From positions 1 through 24,089 of IMG/VR virus record IMGVR_UViG_3300045918_000266: a DNA stretch of 24,089 nucleotides. One strand, given 5' to 3'. Below the pieces are notes generated by a model. The model was not told the origin of the DNA and did no database searches. It saw only the letters and a list, made by a program, of their open reading frames with translations. This DNA comes from a virus. The translations under genes were made by a program, and so were the position numbers. Shown piece by piece: positions 4,656 to 24,089 of this stretch (the stretch's first letter is position 1; each line of letters starts with the position of its first letter).

Positions 4656-4673
4656 AGACTCATGGATGAGTCT
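4656..4673 (-). other. Stem-loop at the exonuclease stop codon
   Basis: Agactca (4656-4662) and tgagtct (4667-4673) form a perfect 7-bp stem with a 4-nt loop. The TAG stop of the exonuclease gene overlaps the 5' side of the stem on the transcript. No U-run follows, so it is not a clear intrinsic terminator. It may slow 3' exonucleases or separate this operon from the next genes. Confidence 0.35.
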
Positions 4674-5271
4674 ATCTAATCTCAATACCAGATGTGAACT
4701 CAATAATTCTTCCATCTTTTGTTTTATGTTTAAGTTTTTCTCCATTAACGACCTTCATAAACAAATCATAAGTTCGTCTTACATCTCCTCTACAATACTC
4801 AATAACTTCCATACACTTTCCTTCTCTCCAAAGTTGAGGAGCAAAACCTCCTTCCATTTCTTTAGCATCACCAAGTGTTGGAACTGATACGCTATTAAGT
4901 CCTACTCTTTGTCCTACAGCTTTATGAAAATCTAAACATAAGTCTATAGTCTTTCCTTTCAAAGCAGTTTGAAACAATTTTCTAGCAGCTAGATGTTCAG
5001 GAGTCTTTACTTCTCCACCCCATAAAGGATAATCAAATCCAAGAGTGTTGAAGCCAACAACATAATCAAATGAGTTTAAATAAGAAAAGAAGTTGGTCAT
5101 TGTTCTAGACTCAACCCAGTCTCTATAGATGCCTTCATTCGTTAGAGAACAAGTGACTGCATTTCCTAAATATTCTGAAGCTTGAAATGAGAATGGAGGC
5201 TTAACATCTCTAAGACATTCAGCGTCTACGGTTACTATCTTTTTACCTTGAAACTGTTCAACATAGTTCAT
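4672..5271 (-). CDS. DnaQ-like DEDDy 3'-5' exonuclease, 199 aa
   Basis: The RNase H-like 3'-5' exonuclease motifs are in order. ExoI is VTVDAE (D16, E18), ExoII is VVGFNTLGFDYP (D80) and ExoIII is EYCRGDVRRTYDLF (Y159 and D163, the YxxxD form). This spacing matches the DEDDy group that includes PolB-type proofreading domains and related stand-alone exonucleases. It would hydrolyse 3' ends of DNA (or RNA) with two metal ions. GGAG lies 5 bases before the ATG at 5271. It is the last gene of the operon driven from 6251-6279. The DnaE-type polymerase in this window shows no exonuclease domain and a degraded PHP domain, so proofreading in trans is plausible but inferred. Confidence 0.85.
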   Translation of the reverse strand: MNYVEQFQGKKIVTVDAECLRDVKPPFSFQASEYLGNAVTCSLTNEGIYRDWVESRTMTNFFSYLNSFDYVVGFNTLGFDYPLWGGEVKTPEHLAARKLFQTALKGKTIDLCLDFHKAVGQRVGLNSVSVPTLGDAKEMEGGFAPQLWREGKCMEVIEYCRGDVRRTYDLFMKVVNGEKLKHKTKDGRIIEFTSGIEIR

Positions 5272-5301: not shown

Positions 5302-5550
5302 CTACTCGTCTGAAGGACCCGCTTTAAAATCTAAAGTAATGTAGTACATATCTTTGATAAACGAGTTGAGGTTTATCTTAAATAGTTTACAAAACTTCTC
5401 CCACTTTTGAATAGGTAAAAGCTTCGTTCCATTTTCTACCATAGCAATTGATTGAGAGTTTTTGAAGCCAATTAAGTCTGCCATTTGAGCTTGCGATAAG
5501 CTATGTTCTTCTCTTAATATCTTAAACCATTTACCAAAATTATCTCTCAT
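5302..5550 (-). CDS. XRE/Cro-type HTH regulator, 82 aa
   Basis: A classic five-helix Cro/CI/XRE DNA-binding domain fills residues about 5-65. The scaffold helix is WFKILREEHS and the helix-turn-helix is LSQAQMADLIGFKNSQSIAMVENG, quoted as two segments: LSQAQMADLIG and FKNSQSIAMVENG. LLPIQKWEKFCKLFKI completes the domain. There is no dimerisation or cleavage domain beyond a short tail, so it is Cro-like in size. It overlaps the upstream gene by ATGA and is the fourth gene of the operon whose promoter (6251-6279) is covered by repeated GTTTACA half-sites. Autoregulation by this protein is the simplest model. A lysogeny repressor is less likely, since no integrase is seen. Confidence 0.85.
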   Translation of the reverse strand: MRDNFGKWFKILREEHSLSQAQMADLIGFKNSQSIAMVENGTKLLPIQKWEKFCKLFKINLNSFIKDMYYITLDFKAGPSDE

Positions 5551-5831
5551 AAATTATCCCTTTCGTATTTATCAAACACTGATAGCATTAGTTCAATTGC
5601 TGTTCCTATATTTTTCTTTTTAGGAAAGACAGTTTCATATTCATATATAATACCTTCGATTATTACAGGTTTATTATCCATAAAAATTCTATTTGTTTCA
5701 AAGTAAAATTGATTGCGTTCTTTATTTTCATTAACTTCTAAATATTTTTTAATAAAATCTAATTGATGTTGTTTTAATCCTTGATATCTTAATAAACTGT
5801 ATGAATTAAACGTTTCTGTTATTGTTTTCAT
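5547..5831 (-). CDS. Hypothetical protein, 94 aa
   Basis: Not recognised. It is rich in K, E, N, F and Y, with a mixed alpha/beta look (central IFMDNKPVIIEGIIYEYETVF strands, given here only as landmark pieces IFMDNKPVII and IYEYETVF). The stop overlaps the ATG of the HTH gene (ATGA). A toxin partner for the HTH protein was considered, but no HigB/RelE motif is visible and the pair belongs to a longer operon. The start is the ATG at 5831, only 2 bp from the stop of the preceding gene. Function unknown. Confidence 0.6.
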   Translation of the reverse strand: MKTITETFNSYSLLRYQGLKQHQLDFIKKYLEVNENKERNQFYFETNRIFMDNKPVIIEGIIYEYETVFPKKKNIGTAIELMLSVFDKYERDNL

Positions 5832-5833
5832 AA

Positions 5834-6025
5834 TTATTCCTCTAATAAAGATTTTAACTCTTTAATTAAATTTGTTATTTTTTCTAGTTGATCCCACATA
5901 TTATCAACATCTTTTGTTGTTAAATTTGGTTCTGTTAATCTGTTGGTTAAATCTGCTTTTAAAAATCGTAACGCTTTTAATGATAATGTAGCAGATTCTC
6001 TATTTAATATAATTTGTGTATTCAT
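5834..6025 (-). CDS. Hypothetical helical protein, 63 aa
   Basis: Not recognised. It has two predicted helices: residues 8-30 (ESATLSLKALRFLKADLTN) and 40-63 (VDNMWDQLEKITNLIKELKS), the second with a leucine/isoleucine heptad pattern. GAGG lies six bases before the ATG at 6025. It is the second gene of the operon, 11 bp after the 59-residue leader gene. The size and helical hairpin shape suit a small regulatory or inhibitor protein, but that is only a guess. Confidence 0.6.
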   Translation of the reverse strand: MNTQIILNRESATLSLKALRFLKADLTNRLTEPNLTTKDVDNMWDQLEKITNLIKELKSLLEE

Positions 6026-6036
6026 AAAACCTCTTT

Positions 6037-6216
6037 TTATTTATTAATTTTTTTAACTGATTCAAAAAAGAAAGCGCTAACGTCTGGATATATTTCGCTA
6101 ACAAGTAATTCTAATTTTTTACGAGCTTCGCTTGGTGATTTCGCTAAAATAATGTGTGTAACTTTTCTAAATTGAGCAAATTCTGAAAAAATTGCTATTA
6201 CTTTATAATTATTCAT
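6037..6216 (-). CDS. Small hypothetical protein, 59 aa, first gene of autoregulated operon
   Basis: The frame runs from the ATG at 6216 to TAA at 6037 without interruption and encodes MNNYKVIAIF...FESVKKINK. The layout is strand, helix, strand, helix: a strand (YKVIAIFSEF), a second strand (THIILAKS), a helix (PSEARKKLELLVSEI) and a basic tail. GAGG lies five bases before the ATG, and the -10 TATAAT is about 35 bp upstream, giving a short leader. It is the first gene after the operator-promoter region, the usual place for an early host-takeover protein. No family recognised. Confidence 0.65.
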   Translation of the reverse strand: MNNYKVIAIFSEFAQFRKVTHIILAKSPSEARKKLELLVSEIYPDVSAFFFESVKKINK

Positions 6217-6250
6217 ATTAACCTCTTTGTTTGGTTGTGGTTATATAAAT

Positions 6251-6279
6251 ATTATACTATAGTTTACAGACAATGTAAA
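6251..6279 (-). promoter_or_regulatory. sigma70-type promoter TTTACA-N17-TATAAT
   Basis: On the minus strand the -35 is TTTACA (6274-6279, one mismatch from consensus), the spacer is exactly 17 bp and the -10 is TATAAT (6251-6256). The start point would be near 6244, about 28 bp before the ATG at 6216. This is the best promoter in the window. It lies in the only sizeable gap among the central genes (6217-6370) and drives the operon 6216-4672. The -35 element itself is part of a GTTTACA/TGTAAAC half-site. Confidence 0.8.
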
Positions 6280-6320
6280 CATTTATTTACACTGTTTACA
6301 ATTTTTTTCAATATTTTACA
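6262..6320. promoter_or_regulatory. Operator array of GTTTACA / TGTAAAC half-sites
   Basis: Half-sites are gtttaca (6262-6268), tgtaaac (6274-6280, inverted), tttaca (6286-6291), gtttaca (6294-6300) and ttttaca (6314-6320). The first two make a perfect 7-bp inverted repeat with a 5-bp centre lying across the spacer and -35 box. Tgtaaa (6274-6279) and tttaca (6286-6291) form a second overlapping palindrome. Binding here would block RNA polymerase. The XRE-type protein encoded by the fourth gene of the same operon is the obvious candidate ligand. The repeats are seen; the regulator is inferred. Confidence 0.7.
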
Positions 6321-6370
6321 ATTATAAGTGGTTGATTTTATATAGATATAGGCCTAAGTTATTGAATAGA

Positions 6371-7747
6371 CTAGTCATCATCCTCGTCTTCAAGGATTGA
6401 TTTTCTTGCTTGATGATAAGTATCTATAATGCTATCAATCTCACCAACCTCACCTACACCAGTGTTGTCCTCAATGTAGAAGTTTGCTAAAGCGATAGAC
6501 ATTACACAGTCATCATGTTTACCATCTGGAGCTTCATAACTAAATTTACCAGTCTTGGTGAAAGATAACTCTAAGATCTCAAACTCATTTCTTACTGTGG
6601 AAATATTTGGAATGTCGAGCACTCCATATTCAAATGACATAATCAATTTATTAATCAGATCGTTTTTAGATTGGTTTGTAAAGACATATGGTATAGCATT
6701 AAACTCTGCTGGAATAAAGTCTGTTAAACCACTACCAACTCCAGTCGCATCATAAATTAAATCGGTGCAATCAAATCTTGCTCCTAACATTTTACATTTC
6801 TCTAATACTGTTTTGTAATCTGTCTTATTTATTCTAGCATAGTAGATCATCTTCTTGGTGGTTAGAGAAAATACCGTTATCACCGTAAAGTCTACAGACT
6901 TAGCCCAGTCGATAGCCATGATGGTAGCTTCTTCTGAACAGATGTTCTTCCAATTTGAGTGGTACCATTCTTGCTGGTCAGATTCAAACTCAACTAATGC
7001 TCCTCTAAATACTCCATCTAAATTCTTAAATATACCTCCACCACCATCAATAAACTCTGCACCAAACTCTTGGCGTCTTACATGATCTGGTAAGTCTTTC
7101 ATTAGGTCGATAAGAAGAGGTGGATAATCTGGTCGCTTATTCCATGGTTGTTGAACAGCAAAGTAACGAGGTTTTGCTGGATCTTTACCATCTAAAAATA
7201 AATGATAGACCCAATTCTTTCCACGTGGAGTTGTGATGATTACAATCTTACAATTTTTCTTTCTTGCAATAGGAAGAATATTTTGTTGGAATACTGTTTT
7301 AGATATTAAAGCACCTTCATCTATAACAACTAAGTTATATCCTTTTGATACGATAGATTCAGGAGCGTCAGCAGATCTTAAAAATAACTTAGCATCATTC
7401 CAAAAATGAAGTTCATTATCTCCTTTCTTATATTCAAAGAAAGTGAAACCAGTTTCTGGACACTTATCATTAATGAATCTCTCTCCAGTATTTTCATTCA
7501 CACCAAAGAAAACATCTTCAATTGGAGCTTTAGCTATCTTATAATTGGGAGCAATCCAACAAACTTGTAGGTTTGGATATTTTAATATGGGAGGAAGAAC
7601 TATTGAACCAACAACAAAAAGTGTCTTACCCCACCCCCGGGAACAAATGATAATTATTACATCAGCATTTGACGCCATGATTTGATCAAGTACTTCAACT
7701 TGGCCAGCATGAGGTTCATAATTAACTTTTATTGTTGCTGTTCGCAT
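6371..7747 (-). CDS. terL: Terminase large subunit (packaging ATPase-nuclease), 458 aa
   Basis: The N-terminal ATPase has Walker A CSRGWGKT (35-42), Walker B LVVIDEG (139-145) and coupling motif ITTPRGKNW (about 172-180). The C-terminal RNase H-like nuclease has MAIDWAKSVDFT (about 279-289, first metal Asp), IYDATGVGSGLTD (second Asp) and HDDCVMSIALA (Asp 412/413). Length is normal for the family. It powers DNA translocation into the prohead and cuts the concatemer. The ATG at 7747 is preceded only by a purine-rich GAGAAG. Its first 26 bp lie inside the 3' end of the upstream endonuclease gene. Expected partner: the TerS candidate at 8237-8902. Confidence 0.95.
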   Translation of the reverse strand: MRTATIKVNYEPHAGQVEVLDQIMASNADVIIIICSRGWGKTLFVVGSIVLPPILKYPNLQVCWIAPNYKIAKAPIEDVFFGVNENTGERFINDKCPETGFTFFEYKKGDNELHFWNDAKLFLRSADAPESIVSKGYNLVVIDEGALISKTVFQQNILPIARKKNCKIVIITTPRGKNWVYHLFLDGKDPAKPRYFAVQQPWNKRPDYPPLLIDLMKDLPDHVRRQEFGAEFIDGGGGIFKNLDGVFRGALVEFESDQQEWYHSNWKNICSEEATIMAIDWAKSVDFTVITVFSLTTKKMIYYARINKTDYKTVLEKCKMLGARFDCTDLIYDATGVGSGLTDFIPAEFNAIPYVFTNQSKNDLINKLIMSFEYGVLDIPNISTVRNEFEILELSFTKTGKFSYEAPDGKHDDCVMSIALANFYIEDNTGVGEVGEIDSIIDTYHQARKSILEDEDDD

Positions 7748-8240
7748 ATTTTTCTTCTCTTCTTTTTTGAAAATATATCTTTAAGCCAGATGAAACATTT
7801 TTCCTATGCTCTTCACTATGAACAACTTTCTTTCTATTTGGATATTTAATTCCAGTAGCAGCTTTAGATAAATTAGCTCTTGCTTCTAAACTCTTTGGGC
7901 CCTTTTTAACTCTCATCTTCTTTAATGCTTCTTCAGTATGCTTATATCCTAAGCAGCCTTCTCCACCTAATGTGAGATTATATCCGTGTTGAGTTACTAA
8001 AGAATTAAATTGAGCCACATACTTAATTTCTAATTCATTTAAGTTTTCTTCATTATTTGTTTCAGCTAATACTTCCCACTTAAAGTTATCCCAACCATGT
8101 TTTCTCATTGCAGAGTATAAAGGATATTTTGTTTTCTTCATTCCTCTTTTATGCTCATCCATTCTAACTAAAAATTCTCTAGCGGTTTTGCCAATATAAA
8201 CTTTACCATTAATAGTATTGGTTATCTTATATATTATCAT
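7722..8240 (-). CDS. Free-standing GIY-YIG homing endonuclease with NUMOD3, 172 aa
   Basis: The GIY-YIG core is at residues 2-17 (IIY...VYIGKT). R26, H30 and the catalytic Glu region LNELEIKYVAQF (E71) are present, so the nuclease looks intact. After a GGEGC linker come NUMOD3-type DNA-binding repeats (GYKHTEEALKKMR, GPKSLEARANLSKAA). The ATG overlaps the terS stop (ATGA at 8237-8240). The 3' end runs 26 bp past the terL start, reading its Shine-Dalgarno as basic residues. Such genes spread by cutting phage genomes that lack them. It is closely similar to the genes at 15895 and 23714. It is a free-standing selfish gene, not inside an intron, since both flanking genes are intact. Confidence 0.92.
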   Translation of the reverse strand: MIIYKITNTINGKVYIGKTAREFLVRMDEHKRGMKKTKYPLYSAMRKHGWDNFKWEVLAETNNEENLNELEIKYVAQFNSLVTQHGYNLTLGGEGCLGYKHTEEALKKMRVKKGPKSLEARANLSKAATGIKYPNRKKVVHSEEHRKNVSSGLKIYFQKRREEKYANSNNKS

Positions 8241-15700: not shown

Positions 15701-16031
15701 TATTTCTGCATTCATGCTGGCTAATTAAGGTTATATTAGGTAGTGAGGTTAAGAAATAAAGAGAATTAGAAGAAGCATTCTTATTTTGGAGGTCATGGTT
15801 TCCAATTAAGATATAAATTTGAATGTCTCCAAACTTATTAAAGAGATCTATAAGTGGATTAGACCACTCAGATCTAATCATAGCTTTGCCGTCGTTAAGG
15901 TCTCCACAGATAAAAAGAGGGACCTTGTGGTCCCTTGCTAACTTTAATGCTTGTGTTAATGTTTCCATCGCTACATCTAAATTCTTTAAAGATAGGTGGA
16001 CATCTGAAATTACTATAAGTTTGGTTGGCAT
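12753..16031 (-). CDS. SbcD-SbcC (Mre11-Rad50) fusion protein, 1092 aa
   Basis: Residues 1-230 are a calcineurin-like nuclease of the SbcD/Mre11/T4 gp47 type: DVH (D10, H12), GDLND (D44), GNHD (N78, H79), H146 and GHYH (H179, H181). About 230-340 matches the capping region. Residues about 345-1092 are an SbcC/Rad50/T4 gp46 ATPase: NTGSGKSS (384-391), coiled coils, zinc hook CPHC (739-742), SLSGGER (about 1000), Walker B WIALDE with D-loop, and H-loop VDHD. All active-site parts of both enzymes are present in one uninterrupted frame. It would process DNA ends for recombination. The two parts are separate genes in E. coli, T4 and T5. The start has a weak purine-rich site inside the upstream endonuclease frame. 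Confidence 0.93.
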   Translation of the reverse strand: MPTKLIVISDVHLSLKNLDVAMETLTQALKLARDHKVPLFICGDLNDGKAMIRSEWSNPLIDLFNKFGDIQIYILIGNHDLQNKNASSNSLYFLTSLPNITLISQHECRNINGIDFGCIPYQPNGDDLLDILAQMKDREVKNLLVHQGIRGAYMGDYIVDESSIAPEAFKDFDFVGSGHYHRSQRPADNILYFGSPFTVNFGEANEEKFIWKLEIVNGKINTVPVMTNVRRHKQIVFEDTITPIEKLPANSLVKVLLKGTKEFTQSVTVEYLKELLGVNSVTISTEITKQSEQRVSSEILNNPIKVIEFYLANCKTTYDKNELEKYFKSAIGELINNFSQSSSKQFRLKKANWNNFLSFKEGSFEYTPMGLTLVEGYDEDLGVNTGSGKSSFLDVPCYGMYGETSKSLKADEAINRQVGRDLFVELFLESNGEEYIIRRYRKHREHENDLVMIMPNGQELRGKDNRETQKFIEQELGKSLDIFLKSSYFTQFGAMDRFLSASDTEKKQLIAEITDLSIYDTILDKVKEVLRAEQIAAEAAQSIVNQDSFKVSHLTVTIQDNQTKLTNWHLAHQNKLLEMQCLVDSENIRIANIKIETQNKSHEWEIHKVGKIKVLKLKEQGFEKLRIDMIENFNTDLSMFNAAQQGKIEVVNNEIEELRNKITPTQDKHDKLLKTIPDMEALEKEKQELLTKKDTVILLKIKEQKISNELFSNTKQVQVLNNKIGADQEKIKNGDLSDCPHCYQSIDVECIHKNIDVFQQDIDKLDDISNDLKKKATAIKVYLDQAPQIDRRLQEIDKKGYEKKNIELELDTILRTIKSINETIKFKNDMLAQINSSVSPALAQIENKKKETNPYTQLIALEETKVNPFSEVPVIENKHLLSLENANKETNPYTSILEKNVSDLQQAKEVELKSIDNRDYWITKVAYGTWWKQALHVYIKSYLMDSCFEQINLIANDHLNTLFDGVLKLNISAVTESKSDVKEKISVQIINNGDECSYNSLSGGERARICLALNLALAKVIAKSSGTKLNWIALDEILNGLDEKGKSQTMKFLKELESEYETIFIVDHDESFKSMFTNSISIVKKSKISYIV

Positions 16032-16710
16032 TTTCTCTCTCTTTTTTCTTTCTTAGTCTTGTTGCCGCTAAAGAAACCTTTAAATTATTAATATGCTCTT
16101 CTGTTCTTGGCGGTTTCTTTTTTCCTTTTAAAGCTAACGATAAGTTCCTTTTACCCTCTTCTGTCATCTTAATTCCAATATGTCCTAAAGAGATGTTCTT
16201 TTTAGATTCAGCAGATCTTTTCTTACCAACATTAAGAGTATTACCCATTAAATTCTTACTTGTTTTTGCTCTATGGGCAGCAGATTGTTTCCTACCCTTA
16301 CCTCTACTTTTACCCTTTTGACTTAGGCTTATTTTAACTTTCTGCTCTGCAGACATAGGTTTACCTTTATTGGGAGCAGGCTGCCCTTTTCTTGCTTTTG
16401 ATATTTTTCTGCCTATTTCACCAGTACTATCTATACAGCCTTCTCCACCATCAGTTTCGTTATATGATCTACCATATTGAGCAATATATTTTATTTCAAG
16501 TTGGGATAATTCTTTTTCAGACGTTGCGAATGAATCTAAAATTTCCCAACTAAATTTATCTTTACCATATTTTCGAATAGCTTTAGAGAAAGTATTTGTT
16601 CCGGTAGGAGCCCCATCTATATGCTCATCTCTTCTAATGTCAAGCGATCTAGCAGTTTTTCCAATATAGAATTTGCCATTGGTAATATTTGTTGCTTTAT
16701 AGATTATCAT
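15895..16710 (-). CDS. Free-standing GIY-YIG homing endonuclease with NUMOD3 repeats, 271 aa
   Basis: The GIY-YIG core is at 2-17 (IIYKATN...FYIGKT). R26, H30 and the Glu segment LSQLEIKYIAQY (E72) are intact. After GGEGC come four to five NUMOD3-like DNA-binding repeats (GKPMSAEQKVKISLSQKG, GRKQSAAHRAKTSKN, GKKRSAESKKNISLG, GKKKPPRTEEHINNLK). The ATG overlaps the recA-like stop (ATGA, 16707-16710). The 3' end runs 137 bp into the SbcCD gene in another frame, so the last 46 residues or so are overlap-encoded and unlike the rest. It is longer than its relative at 7722. A selfish gene placed between two recombination genes. Confidence 0.92.
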   Translation of the reverse strand: MIIYKATNITNGKFYIGKTARSLDIRRDEHIDGAPTGTNTFSKAIRKYGKDKFSWEILDSFATSEKELSQLEIKYIAQYGRSYNETDGGEGCIDSTGEIGRKISKARKGQPAPNKGKPMSAEQKVKISLSQKGKSRGKGRKQSAAHRAKTSKNLMGNTLNVGKKRSAESKKNISLGHIGIKMTEEGKRNLSLALKGKKKPPRTEEHINNLKVSLAATRLRKKKERENANQTYSNFRCPPIFKEFRCSDGNINTSIKVSKGPQGPSFYLWRP

Positions 16711-19167: not shown

Positions 19168-19719
19168 TTATAGCTCGACTTGAGCTTGGTTAAAGTTTAG
19201 TTCTGATTTAATATATGGCCCGTAACAAATAGCGTCTTGCATCAACCCAGAGAGAAATGTAGGATTAACTGTGTGCAACATTTCAATTAGATCGTCTAGG
19301 TATTTAGAAGGTAAATGCCAAGATAAATCTCCAGTTTTATATTCTTTGCCTTCTCTTATTGCGGTTGCTACTTCACCGATATTTTTATCAGTTGTTCCTT
19401 CTGAATAGATCCAACAAAGGTCTGGAAAAGTAGTAGCAAAAATAGTATCTGAGAAACGATGTGTAGCGAAATATTCATCTGGAACCTTTGTAGCAAAATA
19501 AATCGTAGTTTTTTCTTCTGTACATTTAAACCATACGTAGAATATAGAATTTCTTTTAGTTAATTTTTCTAATGAACACTTGTTAATCCAAGGTAAATCA
19601 ACTTTAATATCGATATCACACTCAGTTGCTAGAAACTTTCCTTCAATTGGAGTTGGTTTCATATTCAACGTAAGATTAATTTTCTTCATCTCTTCAATTA
19701 TGTCTTGTTCTGTTTCCAT
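19168..19719 (-). CDS. Hypothetical protein, 183 aa
   Basis: Not recognised. It is a mixed alpha/beta protein with several aromatic strands (SIFYVWFKCTEEKTTIYFA as a landmark) and a helical C-terminus; four cysteines are scattered without a metal pattern. GGAGG lies seven bases before the ATG, which overlaps the polymerase stop by one base (TAATG). Its place between the DNA polymerase and the ssDNA-binding protein suggests a replication accessory role, which is only context. No signal peptide or membrane helix. Confidence 0.6.
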   Translation of the reverse strand: METEQDIIEEMKKINLTLNMKPTPIEGKFLATECDIDIKVDLPWINKCSLEKLTKRNSIFYVWFKCTEEKTTIYFATKVPDEYFATHRFSDTIFATTFPDLCWIYSEGTTDKNIGEVATAIREGKEYKTGDLSWHLPSKYLDDLIEMLHTVNPTFLSGLMQDAICYGPYIKSELNFNQAQVEL

Positions 19720-22700
19720 TATAATTCCTCCATACCTAATATCGTCATTTGAACTGTGTTATTATATTCTGATGTGGCACAATGAAATTTAATATTCTTC
19801 TTTTCTTTCAATAAACTTTCTTTATAAATATTAATTTCATCTTCCCATATTCTTAGTTTAGTTGACTCTCCAGAGTTAGTGATTTCAATTACACCATATT
19901 CTTTATCGGTCTTAGTTTTTTTAATTGTTATTTTTTTAATAGTACCCAAGACGTAGACTTTTGTTTTAGCTTTAATTTGCTCATCATATCTAGTTAACTT
20001 ATCACTAAATCTGTCTCCATATATCTCATATAGATCTACAGATAAGAATGATAGAGAAGTTATTCTGTTCTCATTAAGTTGATAAGTCGTTAGAGCAGAG
20101 AGTTCAACTGGAACCTTTTCTTTTCTGCTAATGAAATACTTATTGATGAGCTCTTGTTTTTGGTTTGGATGAAGAGACTCAAAACAACCTGAATAAATAA
20201 GTCTCAACACTACTGTTTTATTTACTCTTGTTTTGTTAACTCTTGAAATGAAATATTCAAATGAAGTAAATGGTCTACACTTATAAATTTCTTCAGTTGC
20301 TTTAGGTCCTAAACCTTTTATCGCTGTAAATGGGAATTGAATTTTCTTATTCTCATTAATAACATATTCCATTTCAGATAAGTTAATGTCTGGATCTACA
20401 CAATATTCTTTTGCAGCAGAATAGTATTCTCTCAACTTATCTGCATCAACAACTTTCAAACAACTAATCCACCAATGAAGTGGATAGTGGGTCTTTAAAT
20501 ATTGGCAATAATAACCTATTAAAGCATATGACATTGAGTGTGACTTGTTAAATCCGTATCCAGAGAATGTAGCCATCAGATCCCAAATGTGTTCTGCTAC
20601 AGTTCCATGTGATTGTCCATCTTCTCCAGTATGAGGAAACTTTGTGTCTGGATATTTTATCCAACAATGATTAACAAATCGTTCTTTATATGGAGCCAGA
20701 ACTTTTGGGTCCTTCTTACCCATCCCTTTTCTGATATCGTCCGCCTCAGCAAGAGTAAATCCACCAAGAATTTGAGAGGCTTTCATAACTGACTCTTGAT
20801 AAATCATAATACCATATGTTTCTCTTAACTCTTCTTCCAAAGCTGGATGTGGTGGAGTTGAAAATCGATCTCCACAAACTCTTTTAAAGAACTCTATGTG
20901 CTGACCATTCTTCATTGGACCCGGTCTACCAACAGAGGTTGTCATTGATAAAATATCTAAACACATAGATGATAATGGTAAATGTCCTAAAATATTTATT
21001 GCAACATCAGAGTTAAATTGAAATGTAGCTGAAGTTAATCCATCTACAAATCCTTTATAAGTCTCCATGTCGTCTAGTGGAATATCATATATGTCTTTGA
21101 TACCAACTAGATCACAACAACCTTGCAAGAACAAGAGAGTCATTAATCCAAGAATATCATATTTAATAATGCCTGATTTTTCACATTCGCTTGCAGAAAA
21201 TTCAAGAACATATTGTCCTTTTACTTTCCTGAGGGGAGCAAAATCAAATATACTATCTTGAGTAATAGCCAGCCCACAATTATGAGCCCACATTCCATTA
21301 ACAAGTCCAACTGGACAACTACTATCTAATACAGTAAAATCATAAACTTGTTGGTTTTTTAAAGTGCTTCTACTTTGAATAAAGTTAATTTTATTTTTCA
21401 CCTTTTGATTTTTATAATCTTGTAAGAATCCAATAGTTTTAGAGAACAAGCAATTACCATAAAAAGAAAGATAAAAAAGTCCTGTAGCTCTAGATTTCCA
21501 ACCGTCTAATGATGGAGCATTACGTATAAAATTAGCTGAAACATAACCGTTTTCTTTAAGAAATTGATATATCTTTTCTATAATAGGAATTGATGTAAGT
21601 TTTAACGTCACTCCACCTCTAATCACAAAACCATTTGCGCTAAACATTCCTCGCAACCAAGAGAATTTTTGCATAATATTCCAATTAGGCCAGTTAATTG
21701 GAAAAGTTTTGTCTTTAACGAATTGGCTACAATAGCCTAAATCAAACAAAGTTTTTGATAATTCAATAGATAATAGAACTCTATCTGATCTATCTTGTAA
21801 TTCATATTCACATTTATTTAATAAGTTAAAGATTGCTTCATCTTTTCCTTTTGTAAAATAAAGATAAAATTGTTTTTTATTTTTTAAATAAGTTCCATCA
21901 TTCCATAACCAACCTAATAAAACAAATAGTCTATCAAAATCATATGCTAATTGTTGAGATGGCTTAAAATTCATTGATAAATTTTCAAAATTTCCATCAA
22001 TATTTAAAAACTTATGATCAAACGTGTTTTTTGAAATATACGTTTTATTAGAATACAGGCTGCTTTTAATATGGAAAACCTCAATATCTTTGTAACCATT
22101 AAAGAAAAATCTCGCCCGCTTCCAGCCACTTGGAGTTAAAATCTTTTTTACTGTACCGTTGAGTTCACTAAAAGACTTAAATCCCTCATCTGTGAGAATA
22201 GTTGAATCACCACTAAAACAAGGATGAGTGCCGTATTGACGATTATAACCAAGAAGACGGCCGACATTTTCTCTGATATTAGGAAATTCATCAAAGAATT
22301 TTTTAGCAACTTCATTTTCATTACAGTTCCTTTCAAAGAATTGCAACTCAGTTTCTTCTTGGTCTTTCATACCAAAAGTTCTAGTTACATTATTAATAGT
22401 TTGAAAATCTAATTCTGGATTAAAAAATCTAGCTACGTCTTTTACAGAACCTGCAGCTTTCAAAGTTTGTGACGTACCAATTCTTATAACTCTATCATGA
22501 CCATACTTCTCAATTAAATATTGACGAGCCTTTTCTGGATCTGAAAAGTCTAAGTCAACATCGGGTAGGGTCCCTTTTTGAATACGGCCTTTAGAAATGA
22601 AGCGCTCAAATAGAAGTTTAAATCTAATTGGATCTAAATGGGTTATTTTAAGACAATAGTTTACTAATGATCCAGCTCCTGAACCTCGTCCTGGTCCAAC

Positions 22701-23705
22701 CATGATCCCATTTTCTCTACACCAGCGACAAAGGTCTTCAAGAACTAAGAAGTAGTCAATTAAATCTACTCGACCATTGTTTTGAATAGCATCCATCTCA
22801 TATTCAAATCGCTCTTTATAAGTTACATTATCTTGTAACCTTCCATAGTCTTTAGCTATTCTCCACACTAACTCAGTCTTTGAACAACCATCTGAATTTA
22901 ATGGATGAAGTAGATGAGGAAAGTTTACAACTTGATCATGAAACTTTAATTCTATCTTAGAACACTCTTCTAAAATAATATTAGATACTGAACAGCCATG
23001 CATAAAGTTTGCTACAGTACAATATGAAGCATGATCTTGCCATTTAGTTGCTAAGTCTTTTAGAGAAAGGATGTGCTTCGACTCTGTAAAAACTTCTTTA
23101 TGAGATCCATATGAAGCATTGTCAACCATAATATCTTGAAGAACTTTATAAGACTCATCAGGAAGAAATGCATTACACGTAACTATAAATTTATTAGTGT
23201 TTTGAATAATGATTTTATTTTTTTCAATATGCTCATGATCAAAAATAATTTCATAAATAAGATGGTCTTTAAATATTGGACTTAATATAGAGTGGTAATC
23301 ATAATTGTCTATTAAACAATAAAGTCCTTCTTTGAATTCATTCAAGTCATAAAAAGATATGCATGGCATTTTATGCATATCAACATTATTATGAGATGAT
23401 GAAACTAATTTGCAGAGATTAAAGTAGCCTTCTTGATTTCTTGCTATAAGAATAATTCTATTAATCTTATTCATATTATCAAAGAAAAATAATTCAATTC
23501 CTAAAGCAACTGGATATTCTTCTTTCTTAGCTGTGAAGTAAAAGTCAAGAAGACCTGCTGCAGTATAACGGTCTGTTATAGCAAAGCCTTTTAATCCTTT
23601 TTCTTTAGCTTTTTTAATTATCTCTTTTGGTTTGCCAATACCAATGCCACAACTATAGTGACTTTTTTGATTCAAGTTTGAGTAAGTGGGTTTTATATTT
23701 GTCAT
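19719..23705 (-). CDS. dnaE: DnaE-type DNA polymerase III alpha with intein, 1328-aa precursor
   Basis: C-family replicative polymerase. A degraded PHP domain (1-250) is followed by fingers/palm motif GPGRGSGAGSLVNYC (about 340), PDVDLDFSD (P381-, first catalytic Asp pair) and KYDILGL (D850, third catalytic Asp). HhH segment FTAIKGLGPKATEEIYKC and a C-terminal OB fold (about 1255-1325) complete it. Residues 496-809 are an intein (see separate entry); the mature enzyme is 1014 aa, shorter than bacterial DnaE (about 1160). The PHP metal ligands HxH and TDH are replaced (SNLNQKSHYS, ITDRY), so it is probably catalytically dead there. The upstream site is weak (AAAG). The start lies 8 bp after the endonuclease stop. 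Confidence 0.95.
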   Translation of the reverse strand: MTNIKPTYSNLNQKSHYSCGIGIGKPKEIIKKAKEKGLKGFAITDRYTAAGLLDFYFTAKKEEYPVALGIELFFFDNMNKINRIILIARNQEGYFNLCKLVSSSHNNVDMHKMPCISFYDLNEFKEGLYCLIDNYDYHSILSPIFKDHLIYEIIFDHEHIEKNKIIIQNTNKFIVTCNAFLPDESYKVLQDIMVDNASYGSHKEVFTESKHILSLKDLATKWQDHASYCTVANFMHGCSVSNIILEECSKIELKFHDQVVNFPHLLHPLNSDGCSKTELVWRIAKDYGRLQDNVTYKERFEYEMDAIQNNGRVDLIDYFLVLEDLCRWCRENGIMVGPGRGSGAGSLVNYCLKITHLDPIRFKLLFERFISKGRIQKGTLPDVDLDFSDPEKARQYLIEKYGHDRVIRIGTSQTLKAAGSVKDVARFFNPELDFQTINNVTRTFGMKDQEETELQFFERNCNENEVAKKFFDEFPNIRENVGRLLGYNRQYGTHPCFSGDSTILTDEGFKSFSELNGTVKKILTPSGWKRARFFFNGYKDIEVFHIKSSLYSNKTYISKNTFDHKFLNIDGNFENLSMNFKPSQQLAYDFDRLFVLLGWLWNDGTYLKNKKQFYLYFTKGKDEAIFNLLNKCEYELQDRSDRVLLSIELSKTLFDLGYCSQFVKDKTFPINWPNWNIMQKFSWLRGMFSANGFVIRGGVTLKLTSIPIIEKIYQFLKENGYVSANFIRNAPSLDGWKSRATGLFYLSFYGNCLFSKTIGFLQDYKNQKVKNKINFIQSRSTLKNQQVYDFTVLDSSCPVGLVNGMWAHNCGLAITQDSIFDFAPLRKVKGQYVLEFSASECEKSGIIKYDILGLMTLLFLQGCCDLVGIKDIYDIPLDDMETYKGFVDGLTSATFQFNSDVAINILGHLPLSSMCLDILSMTTSVGRPGPMKNGQHIEFFKRVCGDRFSTPPHPALEEELRETYGIMIYQESVMKASQILGGFTLAEADDIRKGMGKKDPKVLAPYKERFVNHCWIKYPDTKFPHTGEDGQSHGTVAEHIWDLMATFSGYGFNKSHSMSYALIGYYCQYLKTHYPLHWWISCLKVVDADKLREYYSAAKEYCVDPDINLSEMEYVINENKKIQFPFTAIKGLGPKATEEIYKCRPFTSFEYFISRVNKTRVNKTVVLRLIYSGCFESLHPNQKQELINKYFISRKEKVPVELSALTTYQLNENRITSLSFLSVDLYEIYGDRFSDKLTRYDEQIKAKTKVYVLGTIKKITIKKTKTDKEYGVIEITNSGESTKLRIWEDEINIYKESLLKEKKNIKFHCATSEYNNTVQMTILGMEEL
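21279..22220 (-). other. Intein in DnaE (314 aa, class 1, degenerate LAGLIDADG domain)
   Basis: It begins at Cys 496 (block A CFSGDSTILTDEGF), block B is NTFDHKFL (T66, H69 of the intein), block F is VYDFTVLDSS, and block G is GMWAHN followed by Cys 810. All splicing residues (C1, TxxH, HN, C+1) are present. The central region carries two LAGLIDADG-like helices. LFVLLGWLWNDG (D108) keeps its Asp, while WLRGMFSANG has Asn (N196) at the place of the second catalytic Asp, so DNA cutting is probably lost. The flanking extein reads YGTHP/CGLAITQD when joined, an intact DnaE segment. Splicing is likely to be autocatalytic and required for activity. Confidence 0.93.
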
Positions 23706-23713
23706 AGAACATA

Positions 23714-24089
23714 TTACTTTAATCTAGCTGAAGACATCTTACTTCTATATGCAGCATATCTAATGGGATCATTTAACATTTCTTTCCTTGATTTAGATAA
23801 ACTTTCTCTATGTTTATCTGAAAATGGATTTTTTCTTCCAGTAAGAGTAAGTGAAATTTTTCTTTTAGTTTCGCTGTCTTGTTTAATACCTTTATTCCAA
23901 GCTGGTCTTCCTGAGAGTCCATCTCCACCTTTGGTCATATTATATTGAGGTTTTAATTCAGCAATATATTTTATTTCTAAAGCATTTAGTTCAACTTCAT
24001 TAGAAGCTGAATTATCTAACATTTCCCATTTAAAATTATCTCTACCATATTTAACAATGGCTAAATGAAAATATTGCTTTGGCACTTTA
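23714..24089 (-). CDS. GIY-YIG homing endonuclease with NUMOD3, 3' part only (runs off window)
   Basis: The frame is open to the window end, so the GIY-YIG core (about 35 residues) is missing here. An internal GTG at 24085 could be mistaken for a start. What is present aligns with the two other endonucleases: GRDNFKWEML, LNALEIKYIAEL (catalytic Glu segment), NMTKGGDGL, then NUMOD3 repeats (GRPAWNKGIKQDSETKRKIS, GRKNPFSDKHRESLSKS). It stops 8 bp before the DnaE start. Placed directly upstream of the polymerase gene, as its relatives are upstream of terL and SbcCD. Confidence 0.85.
   Translation of the reverse strand, partial: KVPKQYFHLAIVKYGRDNFKWEMLDNSASNEVELNALEIKYIAELKPQYNMTKGGDGLSGRPAWNKGIKQDSETKRKISLTLTGRKNPFSDKHRESLSKSRKEMLNDPIRYAAYRSKMSSARLK

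Follow-up and report, generated by a model that had tools for sequence, protein, structure and literature searches.

A predicted 19 bp operator within the promoter of an XRE-encoding operon in an uncultured phage group

A strong promoter overlapped by several copies of a heptamer, upstream of an operon encoding a small XRE-type DNA binding protein, raises the question of which of the repeats, if any, form an operator and which protein would read it. The promoter lies in a 24,089-base viral contig (hereafter the window) in which the major genes are all on the minus strand, in the order DNA polymerase III alpha, RecA, an SbcCD-like nuclease, a sigma-like protein and the terminase large subunit, followed by the XRE operon and then by an exonuclease gene and small genes. 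A sequence-only reading had proposed that this is an autoregulated early switch, with cooperative binding to four or five GTTTACA/TGTAAAC half-sites, in a phage with no visible integrase.

A DNA search gave no match of the window to annotated phage DNA, no match of its terminase among annotated phages exceeds ~26%, and a terminase scan of 84,980 prokaryote genomes found distant relatives only, none above 25–42%. The terminase is common to three other records, G001 (77 kb, 90%), G002 (63 kb, 63%) and G003 (46 kb, 48–49%). There is no comparable operon downstream of the terminase in G003, and the conservation argument covers one close relative (G001) and one distant relative (G002), in records that are possibly incomplete. 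Profile searches with the XRE protein, the exonuclease and a 148-aa gene found no further relatives. The phage carrying the operon is tailed and looks to be virulent in character.

Several other features of the window were noted. A tRNA-Gln (anticodon ttg) is at 2283–2358, and three ORFs (7722–8240, 15895–16710 and 23714–24088) are GIY-YIG-like endonucleases by eye, all on the minus strand; the GIY-YIG-like ORF preceding the terminase is missing from that position in G001, where the nearest match is at 11.3 kb. The DNA polymerase III alpha gene (19719–23705, minus strand) has an apparent intein-like insert (CFSGDSTILTDEG ... GMWAHNC; by eye), and the G001 homologue (1331 aa) is similar in length to that of the window. 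A 19-bp G+C-rich tandem repeat (CGGGCACTATCTGGGACAC) is present in 5.5 copies at 26–129, at the end of an otherwise AT-rich contig, and could be an assembly-end feature.

The promoter is on the minus strand, and the near-perfect sigma70 match and the perfect 7-5-7 palindrome (6280–6262), which takes in the −35 and the greater part of the spacer, are both as the sequence-only reading described them (Table 1). We located five half-sites, at 6262–6268, 6274–6280, 6285–6291, 6294–6300 and 6314–6320 (the third and fifth with one mismatch each), and the uneven distances of 12, 11, 9 and 20 bp between successive centres were reproduced. When the window and G001 were searched for this 7-5-7 palindrome, a single copy was found in the window and a single copy in all 77 kb of G001, a distribution that suits a local autoregulator. 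The 17 bp spacer is upstream of the expected start site, so the signal is at the level of DNA rather than RNA, and an RNA hairpin was ruled out by this position. A promoter-like site on the plus strand (6295–6322) shows no conservation in the relatives.

Table 1. Features of the XRE operon and its promoter region, in window coordinates
Feature	Coordinates	Strand	Comment
Promoter TTTACA (6279–6274)-17 bp-TATAAT (6256–6251)	6251–6279	−	11/12 to consensus; orthologous promoters in G001 and G002
Proposed XRE operator GTTTACA-TTGTC-TGTAAAC	6262–6280	−	Perfect in window and G001, missing in G002
Cassette element TGTAAAT-AAAT-GTTTACA, ending in the −35	6274–6291	−	Exact also in G001 P2 and P3
Two extra half-sites, 6294–6300 (exact) and 6314–6320 (one mismatch)	6294–6320	−	Window only
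Predicted 5′ leader, RBS AGAGG before ATG 6216	6217–6244	−	Sequence
Operon gene 1, 59 aa, no family	6037–6216	−	Without G001 counterpart
Operon gene 2, 63 aa, no family	5834–6025	−	No G001 counterpart found
Operon gene 3, 94 aa, no family	5547–5831	−	46% to G001
Operon gene 4, 82-aa XRE protein (HTH_3), proposed autorepressor	5302–5550	−	E=2.5e-7; phrog_8
199-aa DNA_pol_B_exo2-like exonuclease, next same-strand gene	4672–5271	−	90% to G001

The intergenic region is only 22% G+C, and how unusual the half-sites appear depends on the background chosen. Among 200 whole-window shuffles, one had at least five half-sites (≤1 mismatch) within 60 bp and none had three exact half-sites within 60 bp. Local shuffles in which the motif was left free (any 7-mer with at least two G/C) gave at least five copies of some 7-mer in 71 of 300 (24%), and about 25% contained a perfect 7-bp inverted repeat. 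The array by itself is thus weak evidence, because AT-rich intergenic DNA yields repeats of this kind when shuffled. These local frequencies favor an explanation in which there is no operator and the half-sites are chance products of an AT-rich promoter, but the spacer is conserved in the orthologous promoter and divergent in paralogous ones (see below), and we consider this explanation very unlikely. Of random AT-rich spacers placed beside this −35, 1.6% contain a perfect palindrome. Across viral contigs the bare palindrome is present at 80 or more loci, none with an XRE relative among the matches listed, and it is therefore too frequent to serve as a diagnostic on its own. One further match to the promoter plus palindrome (L188) is on an unrelated contig, before the gene for a recombinase, and was discarded as chance or convergent. 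The credibility of the predicted operator comes from its conservation, and not from the number of half-sites.

The operator-promoter core is identical at 29 of 30 positions in the window and G001, compared to 77 of 111 aligned bases in the rest of the intergenic region (Fisher p=8e-4). The orthologous G001 promoter (P1) has identical hexamers and a perfect palindrome with no further half-site, the outer arm being lost (ATTAAAT). In G002 the promoter is kept as TTTACT-17-TATAAT with a related leader, and the right arm of the palindrome is lost (2/7); an inverted repeat was sought in this promoter and no clear operator was found. The XRE proteins of the window and G001 are 59–61% identical and share an identical presumed recognition stretch, NSQSIA, while the G002 helix-turn-helix (HTH) protein in the same slot is 132 aa long, is 29% identical over 70 residues, and has a different stretch in place of NSQSIA. 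Across these three genomes the presence of the palindrome appears to follow the XRE protein, being kept with it and lost where the HTH has diverged. Part of the conservation could be explained by the closeness of the window and G001, and the contrast between the XRE protein (61%) and its neighbor (90%) is not special, as nearby small genes are 32–76% identical.

Comparison with G001 also shows that much of the promoter belongs to a repeated cassette. The pattern TGTAAAT-N4-GTTTACA-N17-TATAAT is present exactly at window position 6291 and at G001 positions 63187 (P2) and 64557 (P3), and the cassette with its leader has three or more copies in the 77-kb G001 genome, where it serves several small-gene operons. 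P2 and P3 also have nearly the same leader (GAATTAACAGCAACAAAACAAAAGG), and the window leader matches the cassette leader only in part. Both P2 and P3 are missing the right arm of the palindrome (TGTAAAC). The spacers of the window promoter and G001 P1 are identical at 16 of 17 positions, and those of P1 and its paralogue P2 at 5 of 17, which is chance level, in contrast to 57 of 61 identical positions outside of the spacer (Fisher p=2e-7). The spacer is therefore kept between XRE promoters and divergent in the paralogues, and its palindrome arm is specific to the XRE operon. In these alignments the spacer is the part of the promoter that follows the identity of the operon, varying from copy to copy.

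Because the window promoter fits the cassette pattern exactly, the half-site at 6291–6285 is explained by the cassette rather than by the palindrome. Neither G001 nor G002 has anything matching the half-sites at 6294 and 6314, and of the five sites the orthologous G001 promoter retains the 7-5-7 pair alone. Cooperative binding across the unevenly spaced array, as had been suggested, is consequently unsupported. The sequence-only reading requires that the repeats not be conserved in phages lacking the XRE protein; in a partial comparison this stands for the palindrome, whereas TGTAAAT-N4-GTTTACA occurs independently of the XRE operon. The latter element may be a site for an activator, an UP-type element or a site for a second regulator.

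The cassette suggests two further explanations. First, the XRE protein might be a regulon-wide regulator that binds TGTAAAT-N4-GTTTACA at every cassette, with the half-sites forming a shared code for early operons. Both elements are built from the same heptamers, the exact element is present at three promoters, and a single HTH_3 gene was found in the 77-kb G001 genome; but the arms converge in one element and are everted in the other at a different spacing, such that one dimer cannot read both alike, and the outer arm is lost from the XRE promoter of G001 itself. We regard a regulon of this type as unlikely. Second, the cassette could be a mobile plug-in unit with identical, reused flanks (TGTAAAT-N4-GTTTACA, −10 and leader), into which a 17-bp spacer is swapped together with an operator for the small HTH autorepressor of each operon. 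G001 P2 (63187–63262) fits this idea, as a different perfect palindrome (ACATGTA-TGAT-TACATGT) lies in its spacer and the leading gene of its operon codes for a 49-aa protein that could be an HTH, given a low-confidence three-helix model (pLDDT 72); a search for its family found none. This second explanation seems quite unlikely.

The Cro-sized HTH protein described as the fourth gene of the operon was confirmed as an 82-aa HTH_3 product, which scores 31.1 bits against a curated family cut-off of 23, and its gene overlaps gene 3 at ATGA. The structure model has five helices (pLDDT 83), and fold comparison returned the DNA-binding repressors C.BclI, SinR (with DNA), C.AhdI and P22 c2. By sequence, two solved structures were matched, C.BclI (E=2e-5) and, weakly, Aca3 (E=0.0075). 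A further HTH match (L004) covers 45 residues inside a 397-aa protein and was set aside, as no HTH gene in an operon of this kind is involved.

These matches invite comparison with two groups of small autoregulators. The restriction-modification controllers C.BclI and C.AhdI are the nearest solved structures by both sequence and fold, and are small XRE autoregulators; C proteins can activate as well as repress. Unlike their operons, that of the window has no restriction or methyltransferase genes, and we do not assign the XRE protein to the C proteins because linked restriction-modification genes are lacking. In G002 alone the HTH gene is next to a methyltransferase gene, the DNA methyltransferase ORF being located between the HTH and exonuclease genes (L006 8641–9715) and flanked by a duplicated exonuclease start of about 60 bp, as if through a mobile event. 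The second group comprises the Aca (anti-CRISPR-associated) families, for which published work describes repression of a core promoter that contains an inverted repeat (PMC9410906). The window operon resembles those of Aca3 and other HTH_3 members in having a small HTH gene after small ORFs and a core promoter close to consensus with an inverted repeat in it. Unlike them it has no known acr gene, and the exonuclease and other genes follow the HTH gene on the same strand; with no acr gene found, we have not classified the protein as an Aca.

The content of the operon bears on whether it is an anti-defence (acr-aca-like) operon, with the variable small genes as counter-defence genes and the XRE protein as an Aca-type brake. 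Genes 1 and 2 have no counterpart found in G001 even though the terminase and exonuclease flanks are both 90% identical, and since the other neighboring small genes are also divergent (32–76% identical to G001), only the replacement of these two genes stands out. A lipoprotein encoded in the G002 slot shares 50% identity with one from the G001 P2 operon, indicating that cargo has moved between cassettes. Together with the strong promoter, its core inverted repeat, the family-less ORFs ahead of the HTH gene and the Aca3 match, these features speak for an anti-defence role; but genes 1–3 have no match in Pfam, PHROG or NCBIfam, and thus no known acr or anti-defence family is represented, and the Aca3 match is weaker than that to C.BclI. 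We consider such a role unlikely.

Cro and CI proteins (P22 c2, lambda, 434) offer a further analogy, in that an HTH dimer on a palindrome of ~17–19 bp blocks a promoter, and the XRE protein might act similarly. Its Cro-like size, and a family also found among phage repressors, are compatible with a lysis-lysogeny or early-late switch of a temperate phage. However, the operon differs from those switches in having no divergent promoter pair or divergent repressor gene and only one operator, and no integrase, resolvase, S24-type CI repressor or second HTH_3 protein was found in the four records (possibly incomplete), extending to the three relatives the earlier observation that no integrase is visible. 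With these absences, and terminase relatives in prokaryote genomes that do not exceed 25–42%, we do not classify the locus as a lysogeny switch, and a temperate switch is extremely unlikely.

We think it likely that the XRE protein negatively regulates its own operon through a single 19-bp operator inside a strong sigma70-type promoter, in the manner of Aca or Cro-type autorepressors. A dimer of the 82-aa protein would bind GTTTACA-N5-TGTAAAC and, as this site overlies both the −35 and the spacer, established promoter biology predicts that the bound dimer would exclude RNA polymerase. The operon would fire once the DNA enters the cell, and its product would then switch it off or keep it at a steady level. 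The promoter anatomy, its conservation and a spacer arm that depends on which operon it serves are directly observed; the binder, the repression and the timing are inferred. Of the autoregulated early switch proposed earlier, the operator within the promoter and autoregulation by the XRE protein are thus retained, and the early switch is not, there being a single palindrome and no conserved divergent promoter.

Self-repressing operons are a common design; what sets this switch apart is that it belongs to a repeated module whose copies differ only in the docking site. A vague operator array is replaced by a precise predicted 19-bp operator with a named candidate binder, separated from the repeated module, in a group of uncultured phages without annotated close relatives. 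If the module is common to small variable genes, it would provide a handle on fast-turnover, and possibly anti-defence, genes in uncultured phages.
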